From positions 22,073,839 through 22,137,838 of the forward strand of contig NC_089854.1 in assembly GCF_036373705.1 (NCBI RefSeq): DNA of 64,000 nucleotides, given 5' to 3'. The notes beneath the pieces were generated by a model, which did no database searches, had not been told where the DNA came from, and saw only the letters and a program-made list of their open reading frames with translations. The stretch's first letter is position 1, and the number at the start of each line of letters is the position of its first letter. Source of the DNA: Amia ocellicauda (lineage: Eukaryota; Chordata; Actinopteri; Amiiformes; Amiidae). Position numbers and translations under genes: made by a program. Of the stretch, positions 21,507 through 50,139 are shown piece after piece.

Positions 21507-23055
21507 TACAGTTAGGTCGATAAATATTTGGACAGTGACACAACAATCATCATTTTGGCTCTGTACACCACCACAATGGATTTGAAAGGAAACAATCAAG
21601 ATTGTAGACTTTCATCTTTAATTTGAGGGTAGTTATGTCCAAATTGGGTGAGCGGTGTAGGAATTACACCCATTTTTATATGTGGTCCCTCGAATTTTAG
21701 GAGCTCAAAAGTAATTGGACAAACTAACATAATCATTAATTAAATTGTGAGTTTCAATACTTGGTGGCAAATCCTTTGCAGTAAATGACTGCCTGAAGTC
21801 TGGAACCCATAGACATCACCAGATGCTGGGTTTCTTCCCTGGTGATGCTCTGCCAGGCCTGCACTGCAGCTGTCTTTAGTTCCTGCTTGTTCTTGGGGTG
21901 TTGTGCCTTCAGTTTTGCCTTAGCAATCAAAACAAACCAATCAGAGAGATAGCAAAAACATGAGGTGGCCAAATCAACTATTTGGTACATTTTTAAAAAG
22001 AAAGAACGCACTGGTGAGCTCAGGAACACCAAAAGGCCCGGAGGACCAAGGAAAACAACTGTGGTGGATGACAGAAGAATTCTTTCCCTGGTGAAGAGAA
22101 ACTCCACAACAGTTGGCCAGATCAAGAACACCCTCCAGGAGGTATCTGTGTCAAAGTCAACAATCAAGAGAAGACTTCACCAGAGTAAATACAGAGGGTT
22201 TACCACAAGATGTAAACAGGAAACAGGAAGACCAGATTAGAGTTTGCCAAAAAACATCTAAAGAACCCTGTACAGTTCTGGAACAACATCCTATGGACAG
22301 ATGAGACAAAGATCAACTTGTACCAGAATGATGGGAAGAGAAGAGTATGGAGAAGGGAAGGAACTGCTCATGATCCGAAGCATACCACCTCATCTGTGAA
22401 GCATGTGATGGCATGGGCATGTATGGCTGCCAAGGGAACTGGTTCCCTTGTATTTATTGATGATGAATTCTGAAGAGTTTAGGCCTATATTATCTGCTCC
22501 GATTCAGCCAGATGCTTCAAAACTCATTGGATGGCGCTTCACAGTGCAGATGGACAATGACCCGAAGCATACTGCGAAAGTAACTCAAGACTTTTTTAAG
22601 GTGAAGAAGTCAAATGTTCTGCAATGGCCAAGTCAATCACCTGACATGAATCCAATTGAGCAGCATTTCACTTGCTGAAGGCAAAACTGAAGGCACAACA
22701 CCCCAAGAACAAGCAGGAACTAAAGACAGCTGCAGTGCAGGCCTGGCAGAGCATCACCAGGGAAGAAACCCAGCATCTGGTGATGTCTATGGGTTCCAGA
22801 CTTCAGGCAGTCATTGACTGCAAAGGATTTGCCACCAAGTATTGAAATTCACAATTTAATTCATGATTGTTAGTTCGTCAAAATACTTTTGATCCCCTAA
22901 AATTGGGGGGGCACATATTAAAATGGGTGTAATTCCTACACTGTTCACCCTCAAATTAAAGATTAATTGTTTCCTTTCAAATCCATTGTGGTGGTGTACA
23001 GAGCCAACATGATGACAATTGTGTCACTGTCCAAATATTTATGGACCTAACTGTA
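21507..23055 (+). mobile_element. Tc1-family DNA transposon, copy 1, with very long inverted ends
   Basis: The element starts TACAGTTAGGTCGATAAAT and ends with the near-complement ATTTATGGACCTAACTGTA, with TA at each end as expected for Tc1/mariner target duplication. The ends are unusual: about 420 bp on the left (21507 to ~21928) is the inverted copy of about 385 bp on the right (~22672 to 23055), and this arm includes the last ~55 codons of the transposase. The outermost ~35 bp form the usual terminal repeat. The central part carries a broken transposase. It lies in SEPTIN9 intron 1. Length is 1549 bp, close to the usual ~1.6 kb. Confidence 0.9.
21965..22845 (+). pseudogene. Tc1-like transposase, disrupted
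   Basis: It encodes recognisable Tc1 transposase parts. First come helix-turn-helix and linker residues (TIWYIF..RTGELRNTKRPGGPRKT, with VVDDRRILSLVKRN). Then come the catalytic blocks: WTDETK (first Asp), QMDNDPKHTA (second Asp), and QWPSQSPDMNPIE (final acidic residue). The N-terminal ~30 codons are missing, replaced at ~21925 by the inverted 3' arm. Frameshifts separate the blocks. Relative to copy 2, ~26 bp are missing after 22463, and the GGGSV stretch before the MAWACMAA block is absent. The stop TGA is at 22843-22845. It is not functional as written. Confidence 0.88.
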
Positions 23056-30269: not shown

Positions 30270-32599
30270 CACTAGCATACATATCACAATACTAAAACAT
30301 GTTTACAGTGTTACATAAGAGTACAATGTGGGGAAACACCTTAAATACGTAATACATGTTTTTTTCTTCTTCAGATTAAATATAATTAAATATAATTATT
30401 TAAGAAATTAATACTTTTAATCAGATTACCAATCTGGAGACACCGAGTGACTTTGAAGCACATTCTCTTTGATGTGGTGGCTCATTTCCACAGTTATTAT
30501 TATTACTCGCATTTTGCTTGGTTATTGGTTATTATTTGGCTTTCAGGTGAAATGCAATGTGTTTGTGTTCTCTTGTTTGTCTCTCACATCTCACAATAAC
30601 ATATAAATATATATATATATGTGTGTATGTGTGTGTTTGCTTTTTAAAGATGAGGAATGTACAGATTCTCATAAAGGAAGTGAAACTGACACTTTAACCA
30701 AATGATCAAAGTTGGCATCAAGCAGCAAGACAACAGATGTGCTTGTATATAAATCTAAACTATATTTATAACTATAGGTGTACATTTCAAAAAGCAAATC
30801 CACAGTAAATTATACAGACCACCCCTGTCCCTATGAACACAGTGATAACAGAGATACATGTTTAATTTCTTGAGTAACCCTTTAGGGCCCAGCACGACAT
30901 CATATTTCTTTTGTAGCCTGTTAATTGTCTGTGACATATACCCCACACTGGGTTCTTAAGCTAAAATTGACGTGACAGGTTTAGAACATCTAAAGCCAAG
31001 CGTTCCAGTCATTCACATTAGCAACACAATGCTTTTTGTTTTACATACTATCAAAAGAATCTGTGTTATAATAATAATAATAATAATATACTTTATGTTA
31101 TATAGCAAATAGACCAAAACACAGCCTTGAGGAACACTGGATGTTACAAAGGCAACCAAACCCACCCAGGGAGATTAATTGTTGGCATCTTGTCCTTTAA
31201 ACTATTCAAGGGTAGTGGCAGAGACACCAAATACCTCTCTCACCTGTCATGAAGGATATTAAGATTTTCCATGTCAAATGGGATCCAGAAGAATTCAAAT
31301 TGAGAGAGCACCTGAGTCTGGTACCATAAGAAGACCCTTAGGAACTTTAGACAATTTTGACAAACGTTGACATTTTTGCCTTTTTTTCATTCTTGTTCAG
31401 AGTAAAGCAGAACTGATGAATGACAGGGAGGGTTAAAAAATGATTTAAAAAAACAAAGCCATAATATTAAAAAAATAGAAAACATATACCATGATAATCG
31501 TGTTTCAGATTATGCTGTGGTCTTGTCAGTTTACCGTACACAGATAACCAGAACAAGCAAACACAAAATACCGGGTGTCAGCCTAGCCAGCAACACTTCT
31601 AAACCACAGAGAGCGTAGCCCATGCAAAGAGAAAACACTTTACTTATTTTTTAAGAAAGCCATACCAGACACAGGCAATATATATAGAGCTACTGATACA
31701 GATATATTTAAATTGTATTGCAAAGCATAAGTAGACCTGAACTATAGGAAATGTCTTGATACAAGCTTGAGGACGATCCTTATCATAGCTGAGCAGGCAA
31801 TCTGAAATCAGTTTCAGCTGATATTGAACCCAGAGGAAGTAATGTACAATATGACTCTGCATTGCCTGATAAACTAATTATCGGTGCAGTAATTATGTAG
31901 TGTAGTACTCATTATTTAGTACAGAACTCATAACACAAAGTGCATTCGTGCAGCACATTATATCATTTCAGCAGTTTTGTGGGAAATTTTGTGTCCTGGA
32001 TTGTATTAAATATATTTATTTAAAAAGGAGTAATCATAATTCACAGCAATTACACTGTAGGTATGAGCGTGGTAGTGATATGTTGACCTCGGGAAAATTA
32101 GCATGGTTCTGTTATTGCATGCTATTTATCCAAAAGTACAAGCTAACTACCTAAATAGATCAACCACATTGGCAGTGTTTGTAAGAGAACAACAGTGCTC
32201 TAACTAAACGGCTGAAAAAAGTGTTGATCAAGCAGCATGAATGGGATATACAAGTATCAAGTGGAAAAGAATGAAAGACAGCACTCCCTTGATGACCGAA
32301 GCATTTGTAACTCATGACAACACCCTGCATGGGGGATCTGGCGGCAGTCATGGTTCGACCCTTCAGCCCCTTACTAAGATGTGTCGATTAGTAAAGCACA
32401 GTTGGTGGTGAACGTAAGGTTCAGAAGAGCCTGCTGAGAAGAAGTGAGCCTTCTCACAGTGGTTATATATTAGAACCACACTTGTAACACTGCTGGCCAC
32501 AAAATGAAGGACAGCACAAGAAATCAACAGCAGTTGTAAGTATTAACTCTACCTACGTATGAACTCAATCTGAGACCTACCTTCTTTCTCATCTCTCAC

Positions 32600-33790
32600 C
32601 TCGCTCTGATTCTGAGCTCTCCTCTCGGTTCCAAGGCCACAAACCCACCATGTGTGTCCTCGACCCTCTCCCCACCCTCTTCCTCCAGGTGACTGCTCCT
32701 GATCTATTCCACTTCATCTCCTCACTCCTCAAGTCCTCTCTACTCTCTGGCTGTTTCCCTTCTGCTTTCAAACAAGCTTCTGTGATCCCATTCCTCAAAA
32801 AAAACCACCTTGGAGCCTACCACTCTTCAGAATGACCCTCCTTTCTCCCTCCTGCCTTTCCTCTTGACAACCCTTGAGCAGGCTGCTCACCATCAGCTCT
32901 CTGCATTTCCATCCCACCACTCACTCCTTGACCCTCTGCAATCTGACTTCTGCACAGCTCACTCCACTGAAACTGCTCTTCTGCGGGTCACTGACTACCT
33001 TAGCTGTGCTCAGGTGGCCTCCTCTCTTCTGTCCTGACCCTCCTTGATCTCTCTGCAGCCTTTGACACCTTCAATCACTCATTCCTTCTCTCTTCCCTTG
33101 CCAATCTTGGAATCTCTGACACTGCTCTCACCTGGTTCTCCTCACCTACCAGGTGATGTGACATGCATCTTCGTCTACGCCTCAACCTCTCCTCACAGGT
33201 GTGCCCCAAGGCCCTGTCTCTGGGCCCCCATCATCGTTTCCCATGGTTTCTCCTAGCACTTCAATTCAGCAGGTTCCCCCGATCTTCATGTCTTTTCCCT
33301 CTTCTGTCCCCCACAGCCCCGCTCACAATCTCTTCCTGTACCTCTGAAATCTGCCCCTGGATGTACAAGCACCATCTCAAGCTTAACCTGTCTAAATCTG
33401 ATCTCCTCTTCTTTCCCGTCTCCTCTTCACCATCTACAAATTTCTCCATCTCAATTCCCGTGGAATCGTCTGCACTCTCTCCCTCTTTTCCTGCTAAAAA
33501 TCTAGGAGTCACCTTCTCTCCTCCCAGCACATCACCACACTGACACGCCCCTGTTTTTTTATTTCTGAGCAACATACACAGAACCCACCCCTTCCCACCA
33601 GATACTTGACTCAGCTCCTTGTCCAGAAAATTGTTCTCTCCAGTCTGGACTACAGCTCTCCATGCCTTAATCTGCACATGCTACTCCACTACTACACTTA
33701 TTGTATATTGTATTGAATATGCTGCTGCATTTTTATAATGCTTATTGTGTAAACTGTCAGTCATCTGCTAATAAATAAATAATAATAATG
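32600..33790 (+). mobile_element. L2-type non-LTR retrotransposon relic (reverse-transcriptase fragment plus 3' tail)
   Basis: Broken plus-strand frames in order resemble the fish L2 reverse transcriptase: APDLFHFISSLLKSSLLSG..PSAFKQASVIPFLKK, then the SLLPFLLTTLEQA and QLSAF region, TETALLRVTDYL, VCPKALSLGP (degraded VPQGSVLGP), HHLKLNLSKSDLLF, and NLGVTFS, ending with SRLDYC-like remains. It has many stops and frameshifts. The 3' end reads TGTAAACTGTCAGTCATCTGCTAATAAATAAATAATAATAATG, a degraded form of the GTAAGTCGCCCTGGATAA..TCTGCTAAATAAATAAT tail, split here as two recognisable halves. It is dead as written. Confidence 0.8.
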
Positions 33791-34359: not shown

Positions 34360-35860
34360 TACAGTTAGATCCATAAATATTTGGACAGTGACACAGTTGT
34401 CATCGTTTTGGCTCTGTACGCCACCACAATGGATTTGAAAGGAAACAATCAATATGTGCTTTAAGTGTAGACTTTCATCTTTAATTCGAGGGTAGTTACA
34501 TCCAAATTGTTTGAACCGTGTAGGAATTACACCCATTTTTATATGTGCCCCCCCCCCCCAATTTTAGGGGCTCAAAAGTAATTGCAGAAACTAACGTAAT
34601 CATGAATTAAATTGTGAGTTTCAATACTTGGTGGCAAATCCTTTGCAGTAAATGACTGCCTGAAGTCTGGAACCCATAGACATCACCTGATGCTGGGTTT
34701 CTTCCCTGGTGCTGCTCTGCCAGGCCTGCACTGCAGCTGTCTTTAGTTCCTGCTTGTTCTTGGGGTGTTGTGCCTTCAGTTTTGCCTTAGCAATCAAAAC
34801 AAACCAATCAGAGAGATAGCAAAAACATGAGGTGGCCAAATCAACTATTTGGTACATTCTTAAAAAGAAAGAACGCACTGGTGAGCTCAGGAACACCAAA
34901 AGGCCCGGAGGACCAAGGAAAACAACTGTGGTGGATGACAGAAGAATTCTTTCCCTGGTGAAGAGAAACTCCACAACAGTTGGCCAGATCAAGAACACCC
35001 TCCAGGAGTTGGCGTATCTGTGTCAAAGTCAACAATCAAGAGAAGACTTCACCAGAGTAAATACAGAGGGTTTACCACAAGATGTAAACAGGAAACAGGA
35101 AGACCAGATTAGAGTTTGCCAAAAAACATCTAAAGAACCCTGTACAGTTCTGGAACAACATCCTATGGACAGATGAGACAAAGATCGACTTGTACCAGTA
35201 TGGAGAAGGGAAGGAACTGCTCATGATCCGAAGCATACCACCTCATCTGTGAAGCATGTGATGGCATGGGCATGTATGGCTGCCAAGGGAACTGGTTCCC
35301 TTGTATTTATTGATGATGTGACTGCTGACGAAAGCAGCAGGATGAATTCTGAAGTGTTTAGGTCTATATTATCTGCTCAGATTCAGCCAGATGCTTCAAA
35401 ACTCATTGGACGGCGCTTCACAGTGCAGATGGACAATGACCAGAAGCATACTGCATATGAAGCATACTGCAATGACCAGAAGCATACTGCGAAAGTAACC
35501 CAAGACTTTTTTAAGGCAAAGAAGTGGAATTTTCTGCAATGGCCAAGTCAATCACCTGACCTGAATCCAATTGAGCAGCATTTCACTTGCTGAAGGCAAA
35601 ACTGAAGGCAACACACCCCAAGAACAAGCAGGAACTAAAGAGAGCTGCAGTGCAGGCCTGGCAGAGCATCACCAGGGAAGAAACAGCATCTGGTGATGTC
35701 TATGGGTTCCAGACTTCAGGCAGTCATTGACTGCAAAGGATTTGCCACCAAGTATTGAAACTCACAATTTAATTCATGATTACGTTAGTTTGTCCAAATA
35801 CTTTTGAGCCTCTAAAATAGGGGGGACCACATATAAAAATGGGTGTAATTCCTACACCGA
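34360..35860 (+). mobile_element. Tc1-family DNA transposon, copy 2, right end truncated
   Basis: Same family and orientation as the copy at 21507. It starts TACAGTTAGATCCATAAAT and carries the same inverted copy of the 3' coding part at its left end. Homology on the right stops near 35860, just after GGTGTAATTCCTACACC, so about the last 115-135 bp including the outer terminal repeat are gone. Without a right end it cannot be a transposition substrate. Confidence 0.88.
34832..35758 (+). pseudogene. Tc1-like transposase, disrupted (copy 2)
   Basis: It shares the DNA-binding region and the WTDETK, MDNDQKHTA and QWPSQSPDLNPIE catalytic-core blocks with copy 1. Independent damage: 19 bp missing after TACCAG near 35200, and an internal partial duplication at about 35440-35490 that repeats the GAAGCATACTGC unit and doubles the QKHTA motif. 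It keeps the ~26 bp (VTADESSRM region) that copy 1 lacks. The stop TGA is at 35756-35758. Confidence 0.85.
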
Positions 35861-38548: not shown

Positions 38549-38635
38549 TTATTTGTGTTGCCGCATGTCCTCATACACCATTTCGTGGGATTTCCTCTGC
38601 CTTGGAGACCGGCGCTTTGCAAAGAATTTCTTAAT
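38549..38635 (-). CDS. CD7: CD7 exon 4: cytoplasmic tail with YEDM motif
   Basis: The acceptor is CTTTTCAG. It encodes 28 residues beginning IKKFFAKRRSPRQRKS and ending VYEDMRQHK, then TAA. The Lys/Arg-rich start is the stop-transfer side. The Tyr in VYEDM is the expected phosphorylation site for PI3K docking in this family. Confidence 0.9.
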   Translation of the reverse strand: MKKFFAKRRSPRQRKSHEMVYEDMRQHK

Positions 38636-41600
38636 CTGAAAAGGAAAGAAGTTCATGATGTATAATTGTACCACAACAACTATGACAACAACAACAATAA
38701 GGTCACTCAGGCCTGGAGCAAATCACACACCACTCACCAACCCAGGAACCACAAATTACAAAACGCGCTCCCTCAAAGGTCTGATGGGTCCCAGGTCCAA
38801 TACTACTAAAGCTACTACTGCTGCCCTGCTTCTACTACTGCTTCAATCATAACAAATACGTTGAACGTCAGTTGGATTGGCGGAAATGTTTAGTCAGTTT
38901 AAAGAGATCTGTCTCCTCAGCACCCATGTGTTGCCTGCTGTGGAAGTGGGCTGTCTTATTGACATGCACTTCAGAGCAGGTTGTCTAGTTGTGCTTAGCA
39001 ATCGTCTTTGAAATGCATTTTCAGCAGCTTTCAGGACGATCTACACAGGAAGCGTTATCTTGTTTATTTTGTCTGATATAGATTTTCTTTTCCTTCCGTC
39101 AGTTACTTAAATCAAATATCCAACAGTGAAAATAAAAATCTGTTGTCATTTCTGCAGTTAAAGGTTAGCGCATATTAAAACTAGTCTAGTTATGAGTAAT
39201 TAAACCTATTTAAAGAAACAATAACATCCAGTATTAATGCTGTAAATATTCTCTCTGTGTATAGTTTTACCCTTCTTCTCTATTACACCTTTATGAATAT
39301 GTTTGGTAGCAATGGTAGCGGGGGTGGTATAATTTGGCAAATGTCTGTTGCCATTGGTGTGATTATCAGACTTAATGTGTATCACAGAAGTATAGCATCA
39401 AAACTGTGCTTGGTTTCACGTATAATGACTCATAACTGCTTTCATGTCGAAGTTGTAGAATGTGCTAACTGTTCACTGCAAATCTGGAGAGATGGAAATT
39501 TTGGGTGTCTCTCTGCTGTCACAACACAAATAACACTCAAACTGCCACCGAAGCCTCCGCTCTAGAAACCAGACCCAATGCCCTTAAACCCTCACCCATG
39601 CTTACGAGAACAAAACTACAATTACGTACACTTTAAGGATACAAAGTTACCATTAAAGTGTACTTAACTATACTTTGTCATAAGGGCACTCTACTTGGTA
39701 CCTGAGAACTAAGGCTGGAATTAAATAAACCCACATGCTAATCATGAATCAGAAAGCAGTACTTAATGTTTTCTTTTTTAGTTTGTCTTTGTATTTTAGT
39801 TTTTTCTTTCTTCTTCTCATTACAAAACTGACATCAAATACTTGGGTGTAAATTGCAGGAAATTATGTACTACTAACAGGAAGCTGTACTTCTTTAGACC
39901 CGAAAATGGATTTGGGATTCTCACCTTGGGGAACTGCCAGATAATGATGGCCATGACACACAGCAGGAACACGGAGGCTGCTGACAGGGCGGTGATGAGC
40001 ATCAGGGTGGGGGTCAACTCCAGGGGCTTGCTTTGTGTGCATTGTTCACCTGGAGCGACGTCAACTGTGCGGGACAGACACTTCATCACAAATCTGGACA
40101 CAAACCCTGACACAAGCATGCTGTGTGTGCAAGAAGCATCCCTGTGTGTGTGTTCGGTGTGGCCTGTTACTCAGCATGCTTTATAAAGGGTTCTGGCCCA
40201 CTATGTGTCTCTGCAACAGCGTAGCCACCCGAGGTGTGTTCAGTCATGCTGTGCTGAGGCTCAGAGAGGCTCAGCGTCGCACCTGAGCACTGTAATGAGG
40301 AAAATGCCACAGAATGTATGAGCCGTATCTCCTACAATTAAAGCCTTTTCAAAAAGAAGCTGCACATCTACCTACCTTTGACCAGAATCAGAGTGCCATT
40401 GCATTTAAATTCCTCCATTTGTGCCGTTTCCATATTGAGGTGTCTGTAGTCACAGAAGTACACCCCAGAGTCGTCCTCCTTCAATGCGCTGAATGTGAGG
40501 GTGATATTGTTCAATTTCCCGGTAACCTTCACTCGCTCTTTGTAGTCTTCCGCTGGTGTCAATCTCATGTTATTGGCGACGTAAAGCACCTGACCTTCTT
40601 TATAGAATATCCTTCTCAAATACATGCCATCAGGACTCTTCAGGGTTGTGGAGCAAGTGATCTTCACAGTGTCTCCCAGCTTCGCTTCCAGGAACAGAGG
40701 AGACTGAGACACTGTGGATTAATGAAGGGAAGCACACTGACTCAAACACTGTCAAACTGAACCCGTGTGTAGATAAGAATACAATCAGCACACCTACAGA
40801 TCTACTCAGGATGCATTAACACACCATCTGCTGTCCCCAGTCTTTATTTATAAGTGCTGGTCTATAGGAGCAAAAGTCTCCTGGATTCACGGCAGCAGAC
40901 CGGGACAATGTGGATTAATAAGGGATGCACGTTGACATGATACATATGGTAAGAGCTGACAGAAAACCTTGATACATTGTAAGGCAGGATGAGTACAACT
41001 TTTAATACAGTACACGTTTAACTGGAAATAACTAATATTGTTCTTATATAATAATAACTAATAATATAACTAATTGTGCTAATGCTTCCTGCCGTCTGCC
41101 GGTATCATTGTGTGTAACTGTGTAATGATAATTATTAGACAGATAGGGGTAGGTCTTATGTAAGGATATTTTATAAGAGAAAAAAAAACAATTATAAAGA
41201 TGGACTTTCACTTCACATATTTGATAGTAAAGAAATCGTATTGTATACATCTTAAAATGATAAAGATCAGACCTTATACAAACAGAGGATCTTAGTTCTT
41301 AGGATCTTAGGATATTAGTTTTAAGTTTTCGTAACATTTCTGGAAATATATCTAAATGGTCCACAGTGATGTCCAAACTCCAGTAGAAAAGCACAGAGGC
41401 AAAAGATCAGTACCTTTCTAATGTATATTATTGCTATCTAGAATACTGCAATAAACACAGAGAAACAGAAGGAGTTTAGGGACAGGAGATACCAAACGTG
41501 CTGTGTATCTGAGGTAAATGTATCCCAGTGCCCCGCTGGACACGTCTCCTACTGACAGCAATGAAGTGACGAGAGGATGAAGACACCTCACTGGGGGGTC

Positions 41601-41694
41601 TCTGGCGCTTACCTGCAAAGGAACCTTCTGAACCCCACATAGTGGCGCTCAACAGAGCGGTGGAGACGAGTACACAGCGCAGAGACAGCGGCAT
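38549..41694 (-). CDS. CD7: CD7-like T-cell surface receptor, complete four-exon gene
   Basis: The exons are 41613-41694 (signal peptide), 40376-40711 (IgV), 39925-40064 (stalk and membrane segment) and 38549-38635 (tail). They join in phases 1, 1 and 0 to give 214 residues. The mature start reads VSQSPLFLEAKLGD, like human CD7's VQQSP. The V domain has VKITC and DSGVYFC cysteines. The usual core Trp is replaced in GMYLRR, as in mammalian CD7 (GIYLRQ), and the domain ends GTLILV. The membrane segment is LMLITALSAASVFLLCVMAI. The tail starts IKKFF and ends with VYEDM, the same YxxM motif that recruits PI3K p85 in human CD7 (IKK..VYEDM). Four exons with this division is the mammalian CD7 layout. 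CD7 acts on T and NK cells as a costimulatory receptor. Human CD7 has 240 residues; the difference is mainly a shorter stalk. Confidence 0.92.
39615..39665. repeat. Short inverted repeat in CD7 intron 3
   Basis: GTACACTTTA and its complement TAAAGTGTAC lie about 18 bp apart and would form a 10-bp stem. It may be a remnant of a small foldback element. Confidence 0.45.
40376..40711 (-). CDS. CD7: CD7 exon 2: IgV domain
   Basis: 336 nt, phase 1 at both ends, acceptor ..ATCCACAG and donor GTAGGT. It differs from the V exon at 44627-44965 by nine substitutions and one codon. The surrounding intron sequence is nearly identical from 40357 to 40849, beyond which similarity ends abruptly. Confidence 0.92.
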
Positions 41695-41742
41695 CCTGTG
41701 CAGTTCAGCAATCTCCTCTGTCTGTCTTGTCTGTCTCACTCT

Positions 41743-41748
41743 TTTATA
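41743..41748 (-). promoter_or_regulatory. CD7: TATA box of CD7
   Basis: TATAAA on the minus strand (CTCTATAAAAGAG), with its 3' end 48 bp upstream of the CD7 start codon. A TATA element there predicts a transcription start about 20 nt before the ATG, hence a very short 5' UTR. Confidence 0.55.
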
Positions 41749-41749
41749 G

Positions 41750-42426
41750 AGCAGGAAATATGACGAAGTTGTGCACCCCACATACATGTACCATAGACTA
41801 GCTTAACCTGTAATGTTATTACTGCTATTAGTACTACTAATAGTAGTATTTGTGCTAGTAGTGTTTTTTGTTGAAACAGATTTTACAGCATTTCCTTGGA
41901 ACAGAAAAAAAAATAGACTAAGAACTAAATTCAAATAGGGAGACACAGACAGCAGTGATTTTAGTTTAGAAAACGTCCAACTCCTTTAGAAAGCACAATA
42001 CCAGTATAAAGGTATGGGAAAGAAAAATAACTAAAATAAACTAAAATAACGATGACATCTCACAGCTTGAAGTTTATTGTGATTTAATGTGATTTATTGA
42101 GCACTAAAACCACCTGTATTTGACATTTGACTAAAGGTGAACTAATATAACAAAACCACACTGCCCTCTTGCAGACAAAACTTGAATAGCTCTGTGGGGG
42201 GGGGAAAGTCAATACAATATAGTGCAGCATAGGCTGGCTTTAAAAGTGCAGAAACACCACCAGACCCCAGAAAAATTACTCAAAACAAATATATATATAT
42301 TTGACAGATAGTAAATCCAAGTCAATTTGCTGGAATGAAAGGTAAACAATAGTGATTTGTAGTAAAATGCAAGTAAATGTTTTAATTGTTATACTGTGAG
42401 TGCACATCTTCAGTGAAGGAAAATTA
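41750..42426. other. Spacer between CD7 and the CD7-like paralogue
   Basis: AT-rich DNA with no supported exon. It contains a G run near 42198 and a short TA tract at 42291-42301. Confidence 0.5.
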
Positions 42427-42432
42427 TTTATT
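42427..42432 (-). terminator. Polyadenylation signal of the CD7-like paralogue
   Basis: AATAAA on the minus strand, about 136 bp beyond the stop codon of the tail exon at 42568. It is the first canonical signal after the gene. Confidence 0.5.
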
Positions 42433-42567
42433 GCAGCTCTTGATTGCCAAGTCATCTACAGCATGTCTTTAGCTGATAAGTGATACTACAACAGGTCTGC
42501 GTTATCACAGGAGGGAGGTGTATTAATGGGACATGCTTCTGTGTCACCAGCAGAGTTGCAGAAGAGG

Positions 42568-42666
42568 TCATATCTGATCTCCCCGTCTGTGTTCAAGACT
42601 GCGCGCACACTTCTCTCTCAGTGGCTTCCAGTCCTGTTTCCTTTGCTTCATGAAGAAGTTCTGGAG
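42568..42666 (-). CDS. CD7-like paralogue exon 4: tail without YEDM
   Basis: Acceptor TTTTGTTCAG, 32 codons, stop TGA at 42570-42568. The opening LQNFFMKQR aligns with CD7's IKKFFAKRR, and the remainder (EKCARSLEHRRGDQI) has diverged and holds no tyrosine. It would not be translated if the TGA in exon 3 is real and always included. Confidence 0.6.
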   Translation of the reverse strand, partial: LQNFFMKQRKQDWKPLREKCARSLEHRRGDQI

Positions 42667-45600
42667 CTGAACAAAACAGAAAGGTAGTGATTTAGAAGGA
42701 GGAAAGGGTTGGAAGAAGAACAACAAAAAAACACCTGCACTCCTCTTCCTCAAGGCCAGTTTGGACTGAAACAAACACAGATTAGTCAGTTTCACATCTG
42801 CAATGAGAAGATATGGACTTTGCATCCATAAGAGTTTTATTAGCACAGAGGCACAGAGGAGCACACAGACTGCATGGACAAGATCCTCCATCGAAACAAG
42901 ACAGTCAACATGGGAACTTCCATCTAAGCCGAAGCAGTGCATGGTGGGATTGAAAGGAGTTCTGGTGATGCTTCATTTCATAGTCCAAGGCTATATATGA
43001 ACCCGTGATATTTGCACTTCACGGACACGACCAGAGATCCTCGATCAAGGAGGCGTAGTTTGTTCATGAAAGACAAGCACTATAAAGTCTAACGCCTATG
43101 AGTCGCAGAAGGAGGAGAAATACCTGAATAAAAGAAAGAAATGAATTTGTCCAGCTGAACTCAGAGGCACTGTTGCACTTCATTCGGTGCCATGTGGGTC
43201 GCATCTGCCCCCTTGTGGTGGACTATGGAAATACTCACGCAGGGGAACTATGGGAGGCTCTCTCATATGTAAATCAATTAAAAATAGCTATAGTGGGTGG
43301 TATGGACTCTATGCACAGCCTACAGCCTACGTATTTCTGATTCAATCTCAGGCAGCTCATTTACTTCGTGATTGATATTGTAGCTGGCAAAATTGTTTAC
43401 TAACACTGCTTGGTTTAACACAAACATTCAATTTAAACATATTTATATTATTAATCTTTCAAATTACCCTTCTAGCTGATGATACCAATTCTGTACAACA
43501 TGACAAACAACATATTTTTTCTTTTCTTCAATATCCACTGTGCTGTCACCTAAACTGTAGAGCACAATGAGGCGAAACGGTATTGTAGATTCAGGAAGAG
43601 AAAAAGGCTTAACTATGTTGCTTAATTAAACATTTTACCGGAAATACTTATTAGCAATAACCACCAGAATATAATGAAGTATGGAAGTGCGTTTTAATCT
43701 TATAATGACTAAGGATCTGAGAAAAAAAATCATAAACAACATGCAATCACAGGTGAAAGACCCCCAGTAACACTGGCTCTCACTATACTAAATCTCAGCA
43801 CACTGTTCTACATAGTTCTTGGTATTTTGATGTGCTGATCCTGAATCTCACCATAAGGTTAGAGGCGATGTATCTTGAAATAAACATTTTGAAACCCTTC
43901 TCCTTTTTGCTTGATGAAGTGACAGTTGATGCTCTTACATACGATGGACGTCATTCACAGTCATCCTGGGGAGCTCTTGTAGGCTAGGGGTGTAGAAAGT
44001 AATTTTCACCTGAACTTATACTGACAGCAGTTGCTTCCGGCGCTACACCGGAAGTCTTTGGGCTGACTGAGATCAAATGTGGAAGTGGCCATGCATAGAG
44101 CATATGAATAATCAGAAATGTCATATTAAACTGCAAACCATGCTTCACGTTGTTCGGGTAGGAGGCTCTGAGGAACAGCGCTGAGTGCAGATACTCACCC
44201 TTGGGACCAGACAGATAGAGATGGCTGCTCACAGCAGGAGCATGAAGGCAGCGGACAGAGCTGTGATGAGCGTCAGGGTGGGACTCAGATGCTGGGCTCT
44301 ATTCTGCTCACACGGCCCAGTCTGCACAGCACCTGCACGACAGCATCCCTGCGTCACACATCTGCACAGACGCCCTGACACAAGCACGCTGTGAGAGCAG
44401 CTTGAAAATCCCTGCCCTGCGACTCTGTCAGTCTGGGTTTATCTACATCCTAACCCCCTGCGGCACCGTTTTTCTTCTGGCGTTGCCGTGTGCTTACAGG
44501 AAGACACAGCGATGCTCTTCTGCACAGTCTGGCACACAGTGTTTCACAGGTGCGAATTAATGCACAAAAGGACCTGACAGCATGTACAAGTCTCATCTAT
44601 TTTTGGCAAGCTGCACATCTACCTACCTTTGACCAGAATCAGAGTGCAGCTGCTTTTAAATTCCTCCATTTGTGCCGTTTCCATATTGAGGTGTCTGTAG
44701 TGACAGAAGTACACCCCAGAGTCGTCCTCCCTCAATGCGCTGAATGTGAGGGTGATATTGTTCAATTTCCCGGTAACCTTCACTCGCTCTTTGTAGTCTT
44801 CCGCTGGTGTCAATTTCATGTCATTATTGGCAACGTAAAGCACCTGACCTTCTTTATAGAATATCCTTCTCAAAAACATGCCATCAGGACTCTTCAGGGT
44901 TGTGGAGCAAGTGATCTTCACAGTGTCTCCCAGCTTCGCTTCCAGGAACAGAGGAGACTGAGACACTGTGGATTAATGAAGGGAAGCACACTGACTCAAA
45001 CACTGTCAAACTGAACCCGTGTGTAGATAAGAATACAATCAGCACACCTACAGATCTACTCAGGATGCATTAACACAGTCTGCTGTCCCCAGTCTTTATT
45101 TTGGATAGACATAATGGGTGAGCTCTGTGGAAAAGCGCTGGTGTGACTGTTTTCTGTGCACTGACTGGCACACCTTCAGGGACTAAAAAACAGGCCCATT
45201 ACAAAGCAAATTTAAGTATCAACTGCCCCCACTGACCACAAAGCACTAGGAATAAAATTAATTGGTGCAATTTCACATCAGTACAGCGCTGACAAGACTT
45301 GAAGAAAACATGTCATGTAAGACCTTCAGAGAAAGTGTTGGGCACACTTGTTGGTTCAAAGTCACAGTCACAATAACACTTACGCAATTATTGTTTTAAG
45401 TCAGCAAATCCAAATTAGAGAAGTCAGAAAATAGAGCATAGAGATCAAAACTCACAGTGCCTTTAGATAATTAAAACTCATTCACACAGGAATCATGTTT
45501 GTTTGTGTGTTTATATAAGATTACGAACTCCTGGAAAAAGAGGACTTTATTCTGGACAACCTTTGGTCGTGGGCGCGTCAGACCACACACAGCTGCAGTC

Positions 45601-45964
45601 CTGTGTGTATTGGTATTGTCTGGACCAGCAGGCAGCTTCACTACTTTTTACTACACTTTAAAGGACTCATTGTGCATTACAACACAAAACAATGTGCATT
45701 TCTAAAATATAGATGACACTATGCAAAGCATCAAGTTGAAACAGAATGGCAGCTGTTGCTTTATATGAATCAAATCACATCCTGTATCAACTGATACAAA
45801 AATTAGAAGACCCTCCTACTCTAAGAAACAGGACCCTACTGTGAGCTCTCCGGTTTCTTCTACTCTGACATTGATTTATCTATGATCTGCTTTAGTTCCT
45901 TACCTAGAAATGCAGACGCAACTGCACACAGAACGTACACTGACAGCACTGCCCTCACTGCCAT
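42568..45964 (-). CDS. Second CD7-like receptor gene, membrane exon interrupted by TGA
   Basis: The exons are 45904-45964 (signal peptide MAVRAVLSVYVLCAVASAFLG), 44627-44965 (IgV), 44199-44332 (stalk and membrane segment) and 42568-42666 (tail). Phases are 1, 1 and 0 as in CD7, so the gene structure is intact. Exon 3, read in the frame set by exons 1-2, gives LSPTLTLITALSAAFMLLL and then TGA (44229-44231). As written, the product is 167 residues and ends inside the hydrophobic segment. The tail exon is still open (LQNFFMKQRKQDWKP...) but has no YxxM. It could be a recent pseudogene, a polymorphic null allele, a secreted form, or a GPI-anchored form. The V domain keeps both cysteines and DSGVYFC. 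Confidence 0.75.
44199..44332 (-). CDS. CD7-like paralogue exon 3: stalk and truncated membrane segment
   Basis: Acceptor GTCGTGCAG, donor GTGAGT. After the stalk (AVQTGPCEQNRAQHL) the segment matches CD7's LTPTLMLITALSAA. The in-frame TGA falls where CD7 has TGT (Cys) in FLLC, next to a 3-nt gap. Open sequence continues after the stop (AAISICLVPR), matching CD7's AIIIWQFPK in placement. The alternative acceptor 11 bp further in also reaches a TGA, earlier. Confidence 0.75.
44627..44965 (-). CDS. CD7-like paralogue exon 2: IgV domain
   Basis: 339 nt. It differs from the CD7 V exon by Y/F in GM[YF]LRR, an added Asp with R/K in the next loop, K/R before EDDSG, D/H after YFC, and CNG/SSC before TLILV. 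It lies in a copied block at 44608-45101. Confidence 0.9.
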
Positions 45965-46629
45965 CTCTTCGACTCTGAGCCTCTGGTGAAGTGAAAGAGA
46001 AAAGCGGAACAACGCCTCAGACGTCTCAGCCAAAACAGCTAACACTTCATTTTTTAAGAAAGAAAAGTGAAGGAAGAAGTGATTCTGAATATTTAACTCC
46101 ATGTTTGCTTTGAAGTGATTTTACTTAGTTTACTTTTAATTTAAACATTGTGAAATGTAAAAAAAAAAAACACAGTGGCCAACAGAGGGGATCTTGTCTC
46201 TGTTTCCCAAAACCAGAGGAATGTCATTAATTCATAACAGGGTTTTCTCCCTCCCTCCTAGAGGCTGTGTGCTGGATATCAAATACATTAATACAATACA
46301 TCGACAAATACATAAGGACCAGTTCACATCATTCATGAAACAAACTCCCCTAGAGAGCCATGGAATCTGTGCATTGTAAAGATAGGTGCCTAATAGCTTG
46401 GGTAAGATTGTGATGAAAACTTTCAATATAATTTTCCATCCATTCCTAATGGTATGGATTAAAGGCTTGTTACTCCAAACATGTATTTATTGTTCCATCC
46501 TTTTGTATCCCACAGTAATTCTTACACCTGCAGGGATACCTTACCTGAAATGATCAATGAAAACCAGAAGAGACAGGAGCAAGGAGTGAATGCACAAAAC
46601 TCAGTCTAGACTATAAATTAATTTATATC
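45965..46629. other. Spacer upstream of the CD7-like paralogue
   Basis: It contains the IRF-type element at 45993-46002 and further purine-rich GAAA/GGAA sequence near 46055-46080. No supported exon. Confidence 0.5.
45993..46002 (+). promoter_or_regulatory. IRF/ISRE-type element upstream of the CD7-like paralogue
   Basis: GAAAGAGAAA is a perfect GAAANNGAAA core, set in GTGAAGTGAAAGAGAAAAGC, 29-38 bp upstream of the start codon. This is the classic interferon regulatory factor layout. CD7 itself has a TATA box at the matching place and no such element. Confidence 0.45.
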
Positions 46630-46635
46630 TTTATT
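46630..46635 (-). terminator. Candidate polyadenylation signal of the B7-family gene
   Basis: AATAAA on the minus strand, about 460 bp past the B7-like stop codon. It is plausible as the end of its 3' UTR; a nearer variant signal cannot be excluded. Confidence 0.35.
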
Positions 46636-47098
46636 AATAATTTGCAAAAAATTTAAACATGATGTTATGTACAAAACAAATAATCAACCTCAACTCATTC
46701 TCCCAACCAGCAACCCCCCTCCCCGAACCCAAAGTCATTCCAGTAATCACAATTCCTGATCACTCCGGCAGTAGGTAAGACATTCAAATGGAAGTAGGTT
46801 AGCTTGCAGGGATAATTCAAACATAACTGACAGGCAAAGTGTGAAGTGGTTATAACCCTTGTGTGCTAAGAGTATATTCCCAGAGTTACCAAAGTTGTGG
46901 GCAGGTAAAAAATCTAAAACAGAACAATACATTGGAATTCATTGGAAGCACATACAAAAATATGCTGTGTTATCTGTGTTTACAATTGAAAAAAATGTCA
47001 AATGAGAAAACTACGCACACTCTAGCACAGCCTTGTTTCTTAATTGATGTTCAGTTATAAAGCTGATTCACAGATGCTGAGTCATTGATACACTTGTA

Positions 47099-47157
47099 TT
47101 ATTTGGTTTCTACTTCTAATGGTTCCTCTGTCTCCACTGGATGTGAAAGGGGTGGAC
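47099..47157 (-). CDS. B7-family gene exon 5: short cytoplasmic tail
   Basis: Acceptor CTTGTTTTAG. It encodes GPPLSHPVETEEPLEVETK and then TAA. It was accepted because the phase fits exactly and gives a whole number of codons. It has no homology by itself. Confidence 0.6.
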
Positions 47158-48307
47158 CTAAAACAAGAGGAAGAGGAAAAAACTTCACTCATACTATTCT
47201 GATGGTTGGCATTCCTTTGCTAAAGCGTAAGCACCGTCAAGAGAGCAGTAATCTGCAGGATGCACGACAGCGATCCCAAGCTGGCCAGGACCCCTGTTAT
47301 TCTTGGCCAGAAAGCCTAGACTTAAGTTTTGTTTCGAAACAGCAGATCGTTTTCCCATTGTGTGCGCCAAATTCAACAGAATAAAACAATTTCAATGAGT
47401 TACAGTTTTTACGAAGAGAAGAGAAACTAAAAGGTATCGTTAAGCTAACAACCATGGAAAGGATGCTAATCTTAAATCATCATTATAATTTTTGCAGATG
47501 TCACATGAGAATAATTATAATAGTAATTTGGGGGAACTCACTCAGTCATCTCTCATGCAGTTCTGTGCCATTTCCCTATTACAATTAAATCATGCAACCC
47601 TTGGAAACTGGCCAATTCACCCACTGCTTACTTCTCGGTTATCTTCCTGAATATATTCACAATTTGAATTGCATATCAGACTTGAGAAGAATTTCCCAGT
47701 TCCATATTTGTCAGATTATTAAGGATTAAGGTTATTCTGCTTCAGAGAGATTAAAGTACAGAGGGAAAGGAAACTCTTATCCCAAAGGCATTAGAATCAA
47801 AGTGCAAAGATAATTTGCAAGCTGAATAAATATTAAACATCATACCCATCATTGGTAGGGTAGATTCCCTTCAATCTGTTAACAAAATAACCCGCACGCA
47901 CAGACACTCGAAGAGCCAATAAAATCTAATCAAACCCTTCATAAATAACTTACTAAGCCTGAGTCTGTTCCACCTTAAAAATAAACATATTTCTCAATCT
48001 GTAATTCCCCACTTCTGCCACGTAGTCTGTCTGCTGCTGAGCTGCAGTTATTTGTTTCTGGTGCTTGCGAGACATTTTCAGAGACAACACACAGCTTTAT
48101 AGATTCTGAATATCATAGAATTAGCTTCTATTGGATAGATTATTTGTATCTTCCGCTCACCTCTTAATCTCCTGCGCCGAAGTAATGCCAAGACCAAAAT
48201 CCCGCTGGCCAGAGCTCCCACCACCACGAACACTGCGGCCACTGCGGTGGTGTTGCTATCTCCTTCTTGCTTGTCAGGCCCTGCAAGGCACGACACACAT
48301 AGAGACG

Positions 48308-48345
<38 letters not shown>

Positions 48346-50139
48346 AACATCTCCAATAGTTTCTATTTGTTAACTACTGCAATCAGTTGTAGAAGGAAAA
48401 TCCCCCCCAAGGCCAATAAAGGTAGTTTATATAACACCATTAATACCAAGTTAATTAGTTACAGGCATGCCCAAACACATCCTTCAGCTACGAAAGTAAC
48501 AAATTCAGGTAAAGGACTTTAGACTTTAAAATCCAAGACTACTATATATTTCACATCAAGTGACACAACAGGAAGGAGTGGCTTCATATAAATAATAAGA
48601 GATAAGGAATCAGCTGAGTGTTTACTAAATCACCAGGAAGCAACTTATTACCGCAGGCCTTACTAAGTACTACTCCTGCAAACACCTAGGTTTCTGAGTC
48701 TAGGTATTTATACATATATACAGAGAGAGAGACAGAGAGAGACTTCTTTGAAACGGATGCTTTATAGTTACAATAATCAGGAGCATTAAGAAAAGCGTAA
48801 AAGCGTGGTTTGTTTTTTTCTTTACCAAACATGAGATTCAATTCTTGTTCTCCTTCTTTGAGGTCATCCGAGTTGAAAACAGAGCAACTGTACTGCTTGG
48901 TTGTAGACGAGGCTGTCACAGTGAATGTGCTGGTCAAGTTGTACCGTCTGTCCTTGGTTTGCACGGATTGGGTCTCTGAGCTCCGGGTCCAGTCCGTGTT
49001 ATACTCGTCATACCACTGGATGCGTCCCTCTGGGTAGCCCCCCGACACGTTACAGAACATCGTCACCGTCATGTCGTCTCTGATGTTCTTTGCTGGCATT
49101 GAGCTCATGACGGGGTTTGTGTACGGAGCTGTGATAGAAAAGGAAAGTAATTAAATCAGATATCAGGAATCAGAAATCAGTGGATTAAAGAGACTGCATT
49201 CCCTGTTGTGACACTAGCAGTAATTCCACTGGATTGGGCTGGCGTCCTGATTATATCTGTAAGACACTGTGTGGCCAGTAAGGAAGGTGTGAATCACGCC
49301 CTTCCTTGCTAACTACTGTGATTATTATTTGTTCTTCAGACAGGAAACAGTAAACAGGATTGTTAATGTTATTCAGGGACTGTATTTGACATGTGTTTGT
49401 TTATCTCCTCCTCCTTCCTCCAATCTGGTACTAATAGTTGCTGTTTTTCACTGGCTGCCACTCTCGCTTACCTGAGACTGATAGGATTGTTTCCGCAATG
49501 GCATGGCCACGGTCAGTCACTGCAAGGCATGTGTATTTCCCTTCGTCTGTTATCTTGGTGTTTTTCACCAACAACGAGACGTCCGTGCAGTTCCCCGGTT
49601 GTAAACGTTCAAATCGGGGATCATTGCCTGGATCTGCCATTCCTGAGAAAAACTTAAACAGTGCATCTTCTGTGTTCTCCTTCTTCCACAGCAGCTTTAT
49701 GATTGTAAATTCATTATAGGGGGACTTCAAAAAGCACTCCAGTTTTGTATCTTGGCCAAACACAGATTTGTGTTGACCCTTGCACTCCATTTTCAACAGA
49801 TCTGCAAAGAAATCGGAGAAGACAGCAGTCAACGGCTGCAAAGGTATTTCAGAAATGTAAATATGACTGATCTAGACGTTGCAGTACCATTCAGTTATTC
49901 AGGTAAACAGTAAAAAATAAAAGGAATATCTTGTGGGTGAGTGAGCGTTTGCGGCAGGAGTGAACAAGGTGAATTTTAGTGCTGTTTAAAGTTAATCAGA
50001 TTGGAGCAACCTGGTAACTACACACAACAACAACAATAACAACAACAAGAATAATTATAATCTACTTACGGTCAGTAGAGAACGATAATCTGATGACAGC
50101 AATAAAAGTCACACAGAATTGCCAGGCAGCTGGAGCCAT
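47099..50139 (-). CDS. B7-family immunoglobulin receptor/ligand, complete five-exon gene
   Basis: The exons are 50070-50139 (signal, MAPAAWQFCVTFIAVIRLSFS), 49472-49801 (IgV), 48826-49128 (IgC), 48161-48280 (membrane) and 47099-47157 (tail and TAA). All introns are phase 1 and the total is 882 nt, 293 residues, close to ICOSLG (302). The V domain has LEC, a core Trp in LLWKK, and DEGKYTC. The C domain has MFCNVSGGYPEGRIQWYD, the B7/butyrophilin-type C..GGYP..W pattern, and YSCSV. Sequons are NCT, NVS, NLT and NTT. The membrane segment is AVAAVFVVVGALASGILVLAL, followed by RRRRLR and a short acidic tail (VETEEPLEVETK) with no tyrosine motif. B7 proteins are cell-surface ligands of the CD28 group and related receptors. 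Which B7 member this is cannot be settled by eye. An upstream noncoding exon is possible (acceptor-like CTTTTCATCAG just before the start codon). Confidence 0.85.
48161..48280 (-). CDS. B7-family gene exon 4: membrane segment
   Basis: Acceptor CCTTGCAG, donor GTGAGC. A short acidic stalk (PDKQEGDSNTT) is followed by about 21 hydrophobic residues and the RRRRLR stop-transfer cluster. Confidence 0.85.
48309..48341. repeat. (CA)n microsatellite in B7-family intron 3
   Basis: Perfect CA tract 29 bp upstream of the membrane exon on the gene's strand. It sits where the polypyrimidine and branch region of the intron would be, so length change could affect splicing. Confidence 0.9.
48826..49128 (-). 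CDS. B7-family gene exon 3: IgC-type domain
   Basis: 101 codons. It opens APYTNPVMSSMPAKN, contains MFCNVSGGYPEGRIQWYD and TKQYSCSVFNSDDL, and ends LNLMF. Both disulfide cysteines and the core Trp are present. Confidence 0.88.
49472..49801 (-). CDS. B7-family gene exon 2: IgV-type domain
   Basis: 110 codons. Cysteines are in KLECF and GKYTC, and Trp is in LLWKK. An extra Cys (MECKG) near the N-terminus and another in GNCTD could form a second disulfide; the latter is also an N-glycosylation sequon. Confidence 0.88.

Follow-up and report, generated by a model that had tools for sequence, protein, structure and literature searches.

CD7 serves as a routine marker of T cells and is targeted by cell therapies; galectin-1 is a second, general binder of this protein. 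The best-known dedicated ligand of CD7 is SECTM1, whose gene adjoins that of CD7 in human, mouse and rat and whose product binds CD7; SECTM1 is reported from placental mammals alone, and as missing in zebrafish, chicken, platypus, wallaby and opossum (PMC4603632). A review links SECTM1, CD7 and PI3K in monocytes (PMC13223139), and the signalling effects of mouse SECTM1A and SECTM1B are reported to be CD7-independent (PMC3769348). We analyzed a 64,000-nucleotide stretch of the Amia ocellicauda genome (contig NC_089854.1; hereafter the window), in which a first-pass annotation had placed a tandem of three immunoglobulin-superfamily genes on one strand. Our gene models confirmed this arrangement. 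Read along the minus strand from 50139 (the opening base of the first start codon) down to 38549 (the final base of the last stop codon), the order is a B7-family gene, CD7B and CD7A, and AG acceptors and GT donors were present at all modelled introns. The segment probably represents a CD7 locus from outside the mammals, with a working CD7 gene (CD7A), a truncated old copy of it (CD7B) and an intact, diverged B7 ligand that would pair with a receptor on T cells. The comparison proteins supplied for alignments, tree and tblastn were provisional sequences, except for the SECTM1 ectodomain and part of CD276, and significance of the CD7 alignments was assessed by comparing the score with those of 2000 shuffles.

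CD7A and its truncated copy

CD7A (41694-38549, minus strand) encodes 214 amino acids in four exons of 82, 336, 140 and 87 nt, corresponding to the signal peptide (41694-41613), V domain (40711-40376), stalk and membrane segment (40064-39925) and a tail carrying a VYEDM motif (38635-38549). The protein matched Pfam V-set over its cut-off (E 1e-10). Its single V domain was nearest to that of CD7, the alignment with human CD7 scoring 118, a value reached by none of the 2000 shuffles. The last exon has the YEDM motif expected of a CD7 tail. Two observations weigh against this assignment: the match between the CD7A and human tails is short (score 28, equalled by 17 of 2000 shuffles), and when whole CD7A was searched against PDB, antibody chains outranked human CD7 (12hp_C, eleventh with 36.4 bits; Fab light chain 8w86_B, 41.4 bits), so that the V domain alone is no proof of CD7 identity. 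Single-sequence structure predictions were too poor for use (mean pLDDT 35.2 for the CD7A V exon and 48.6 for the V exon of the B7-family gene). Taken together, the V domain, membrane exon and VYEDM tail make CD7A a convincing CD7. By analogy with known CD7, it would act on T or NK cells as a receptor with a single V domain, and its YEDM tail would recruit PI3-kinase.

CD7B (45964-42568, minus strand) likewise has four exons, of 61, 339, 134 and 99 nt: signal (45964-45904), V domain (44965-44627), membrane (44332-44199) and tail (42666-42568). An in-frame TGA at 44231-44229 lies inside the membrane segment, 30 nt short of the end of the third exon, and the tail exon contains no YEDM, so CD7B lacks both a full membrane segment and the CD7 tail motif and would yield at best a truncated protein. 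The earlier suggestion of two genes with the CD7 exon plan thus holds for CD7A, whereas CD7B is an incomplete copy. Alignment of its tail with the human CD7 tail was no better than chance (1906 of 2000 shuffles scored as high), and alignment with the CD7A tail was hardly better (309 of 2000). A 496-base tract that includes the V exon was 97% identical between CD7A and CD7B; elsewhere only short stretches aligned, at 79 to 83%. This contrast is in keeping with an old duplication followed by gene conversion that made the V exons alike. Within the V exons, seven codons differed with an amino-acid change and two silently, and one further in-frame codon was present; these differences are too few to warrant a claim about selection.

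In the history that we propose, CD7B would have arisen long ago as a tandem copy; gene conversion would have overwritten its V exon recently, or recent duplication would have kept it, while the remainder drifted. Its product would stop within the membrane segment, making YEDM signalling impossible, and the gene as read would produce a V domain that is secreted or only loosely held at the membrane, if it produces anything. CD7B may be decaying. That it is a plain pseudogene, with no useful product, has an even chance in our estimate: the stop in the membrane exon and the lost YEDM point that way, but the signal and V exons are open, splice sites are retained, the leftover hydrophobic end might act as an anchor signal, and nonsense-mediated decay is not expected because the stop is merely 30 nt from the exon end. 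The lone stop might also be an assembly error, a point against the proposed history.

The B7-family gene

The B7-family gene (50139-47099, minus strand) has five exons of 70, 330, 303, 120 and 59 nt, all introns being in phase 1, and encodes 293 residues. The exons correspond to the signal peptide (50139-50070), V domain (49801-49472), C domain (49128-48826), membrane segment (48280-48161) and a short tail (47157-47099). The B7-type plan of V domain, C domain and membrane segment, initially proposed by inspection, was borne out by Pfam matches over cut-off for both V-set (E 4e-8) and the CD80-like C2-set (C2-set_2; E 1.2e-9); the signal peptide and membrane segment were recognized by eye. The best PDB match was CD276 (B7-H3), in the form of a single V-C chain (9lme_A, E 1.2e-16), and BTN1A1 was the second best B7-type match (E 4.1e-9). 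The gene thus appears to encode an intact, diverged B7-family ligand with two immunoglobulin domains, nearest to CD276, which is a candidate relative only. As in other members of the family, the protein would most likely be displayed on antigen-presenting or tissue cells, with its V domain engaging a receptor on T cells.

Several results weigh against a close tie to CD276. ROBO2, titin, DSCAM and others fell between CD276 and BTN1A1 in the PDB ranking. ROBO2 and contactin-2 ranked above CD276 when the V exon was searched by itself, and single-copy CD276 equalled VTCN1 at 20.0 bits; in a search with just the C exon, single-copy CD276 (31.7 bits) scored below two antibody chains (34.6 and 32.9 bits). 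Identity to human CD80 (53/185) was slightly above that to human CD276 (56/204). In a tree of the B7 family built with ten human sequences, the window gene was left unplaced on a branch of 3.22; CD276 was nearest by path, outside any supported group, and one of eight inner branches, that joining CD274 and PD-L2, was starred. Moreover, CD274, BTN1A1, ICOSLG and VTCN1 resemble CD276 more than the window protein does, and HHLA2 does so about equally.

Chance neighbour or partner of CD7

Two explanations were considered for the position of the B7-family gene beside CD7. It may belong to a set of several CD276-like or butyrophilin-like genes scattered through this genome and have come to lie there by chance, which we rate a little short of an even proposition. 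CD276 being the nearest solved relative, the tree giving no resolved placement and the large number of such genes in fish all accord with this explanation. Against it, tblastn with the V and C domains detected no second B7-like exon above noise in the 64 kb, so the gene does not belong to a local array; a search with the CD7A protein revealed no extra copy above noise.

Alternatively, the B7 protein could be a CD7 ligand and the locus an old receptor-ligand cassette, in which its V domain would bind the V domain of CD7A and trigger YEDM signalling, CD7B would serve as a soluble or lipid-anchored decoy, and mammals would have lost the B7 gene or shrunk it to a V-only SECTM1. The adjacency and shared orientation of the B7 and CD7 genes favor this possibility, as does the intact V exon of CD7B beside lost membrane and tail parts. 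SECTM1, too, is placed upstream of CD7 and in the same orientation, as is the B7 gene here. The mammalian premise of the first-pass annotation, that SECTM1 is adjacent to CD7 and binds it, agrees with what is reported for human, mouse and rat (PMC4603632).

Comparison of the B7 gene with SECTM1 itself argues in the other direction. A likeness between the two V domains had been suggested by eye, but the V domain scored no higher with SECTM1 than with other V domains, PD-L2 being higher and BTN1A1 about equal. The IKL stretches of the B7 gene and SECTM1, which had been offered as part of this likeness, remained unaligned in both alignments made, and aligned runs of at least three identical residues occurred in 55 of 78 V domain pairs from a panel of 13. 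SECTM1 has a published invariant motif, G-x-Y-x-W-x-L-x-G-x-Q (PMC4603632); the B7 gene has GKYTCLAVTDR at this site, matching two of the six residues ungapped and three gapped, so that at least three of the six published invariant residues differ. In addition, the V exon of the B7 gene is followed by an exon for a C domain, which makes two immunoglobulin domains, whereas SECTM1 has a single one. The B7 gene as a SECTM1 homologue is thus unsupported by sequence. The reported absence of SECTM1 from zebrafish, chicken, platypus, wallaby and opossum and the CD7-independent effects reported for mouse SECTM1A and SECTM1B also speak against a ligand cassette, and conservation of the linkage cannot be shown from one window. 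On current evidence we consider a ligand pair unlikely and chance linkage the likelier of the two. The broader scenario, in which a two-domain B7-type ligand was encoded beside CD7 long before SECTM1, the placental SECTM1 being its replacement at the same spot or a reduced remnant and truncated CD7B serving the same circuit as a natural decoy, appears more doubtful still.

Among the matches listed, titles and abstract openings announced no B7 gene linked to CD7, and no statement of a dedicated CD7 ligand outside placental mammals was found; CD7 was unmentioned in the main text of papers on the evolution of the CD28 family and PD-1. A B7-family gene adjoining CD7 is a concrete candidate for a CD7 ligand, though the sequence gives no preference for this role over chance linkage.

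Surroundings and comparison with known systems

Upstream of the B7 gene, a JPT1 (HN1)-like gene occupies 62782-57186 on the minus strand, with exons at 62782-62726, about 61010-60879 and 57287-57186; other exons were probably missed. These were detected by tblastn with human JPT1 (E 5e-5, 1.4e-9 and 4e-6), JPT2 fitting the middle exon worse than JPT1 (40.8 vs 47.4 bits), and the Pfam JUPITER match (E 2.4e-5) was under its cut-off. Human JPT1 and CD7 both lie on 17q25, some 7 million bases apart. The JPT1-like gene is compatible with an origin of this block from that chromosome arm, without amounting to tight synteny. Other candidate neighbours (CSNK1D, the FOXK domain, RAB40, SUMO2, GRB2, H3-3B, ATP5PD and KCTD2) gave no credible tblastn match with provisional query sequences, the best being a 19-residue stretch of H3-3B (E 0.094).

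Pfam was searched with 20 hand-picked open frames from the 85 listed for the whole window; 16 had no match, and the others gave a DDE_3 transposase over cut-off and Tc3-type, HTH_32 and JUPITER matches under it. Two broken copies of a Tc1-type transposase lie on the plus strand at 21953-22237 and 34820-35590 (DDE_3 matched over its cut-off, HTH_Tnp_Tc3_2 and HTH_32 under theirs). Open frames at 32563-33540 (plus strand) resemble, on visual inspection, fragments of a LINE-type reverse transcriptase and had no Pfam match. In the 38 kb below CD7A (1-38000), this shallow search found Tc1-type transposase pieces and no nameable gene. An exon scan of the window returned eight stretches over cut-off, including two in CD7A, one in the B7 gene, one in JPT1 and four unsupported; because known exons escaped it, among them the V exon of the B7 gene, the scan is no proof that the rest of the window is empty. 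No tRNA was detected in the window by ARAGORN (bacterial code), and no Rfam family matched at gathering score.

The B7 gene shares the V-C-membrane-tail plan of the two-immunoglobulin-domain form of CD276, and its C domain contains PY-P-M-P-K-R-TVT-C and GYPE stretches like those of CD276. It differs from CD276 in that identity is limited to 56 of 204 aligned residues, its branch is long and without tree support, and its V domain is equally close to VTCN1 and BTN1A1. Compared with BTN1A1, the match is weaker than to CD276 and the short last exon leaves no B30.2 tail. SECTM1 is similar in being a membrane protein with an Ig-like V domain that adjoins CD7 in human, mouse and rat (PMC4603632), and differs from the B7 gene in its one immunoglobulin domain, atypical disulfide and own G-Y-W-L-G-Q motif. 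CD7A and human CD7 share a signal peptide, one V domain with YLR replacing the C-strand Trp, a membrane exon and YEDM in the tail. Unlike human CD7, CD7A has a short stalk without proline-rich repeats and an extra Cys near the V domain end, and a tandem copy, CD7B, is present. The place of this Cys differs between the copies: KCNG in CD7A (40376-40711) and KSSC in CD7B (44627-44965), both on the minus strand.
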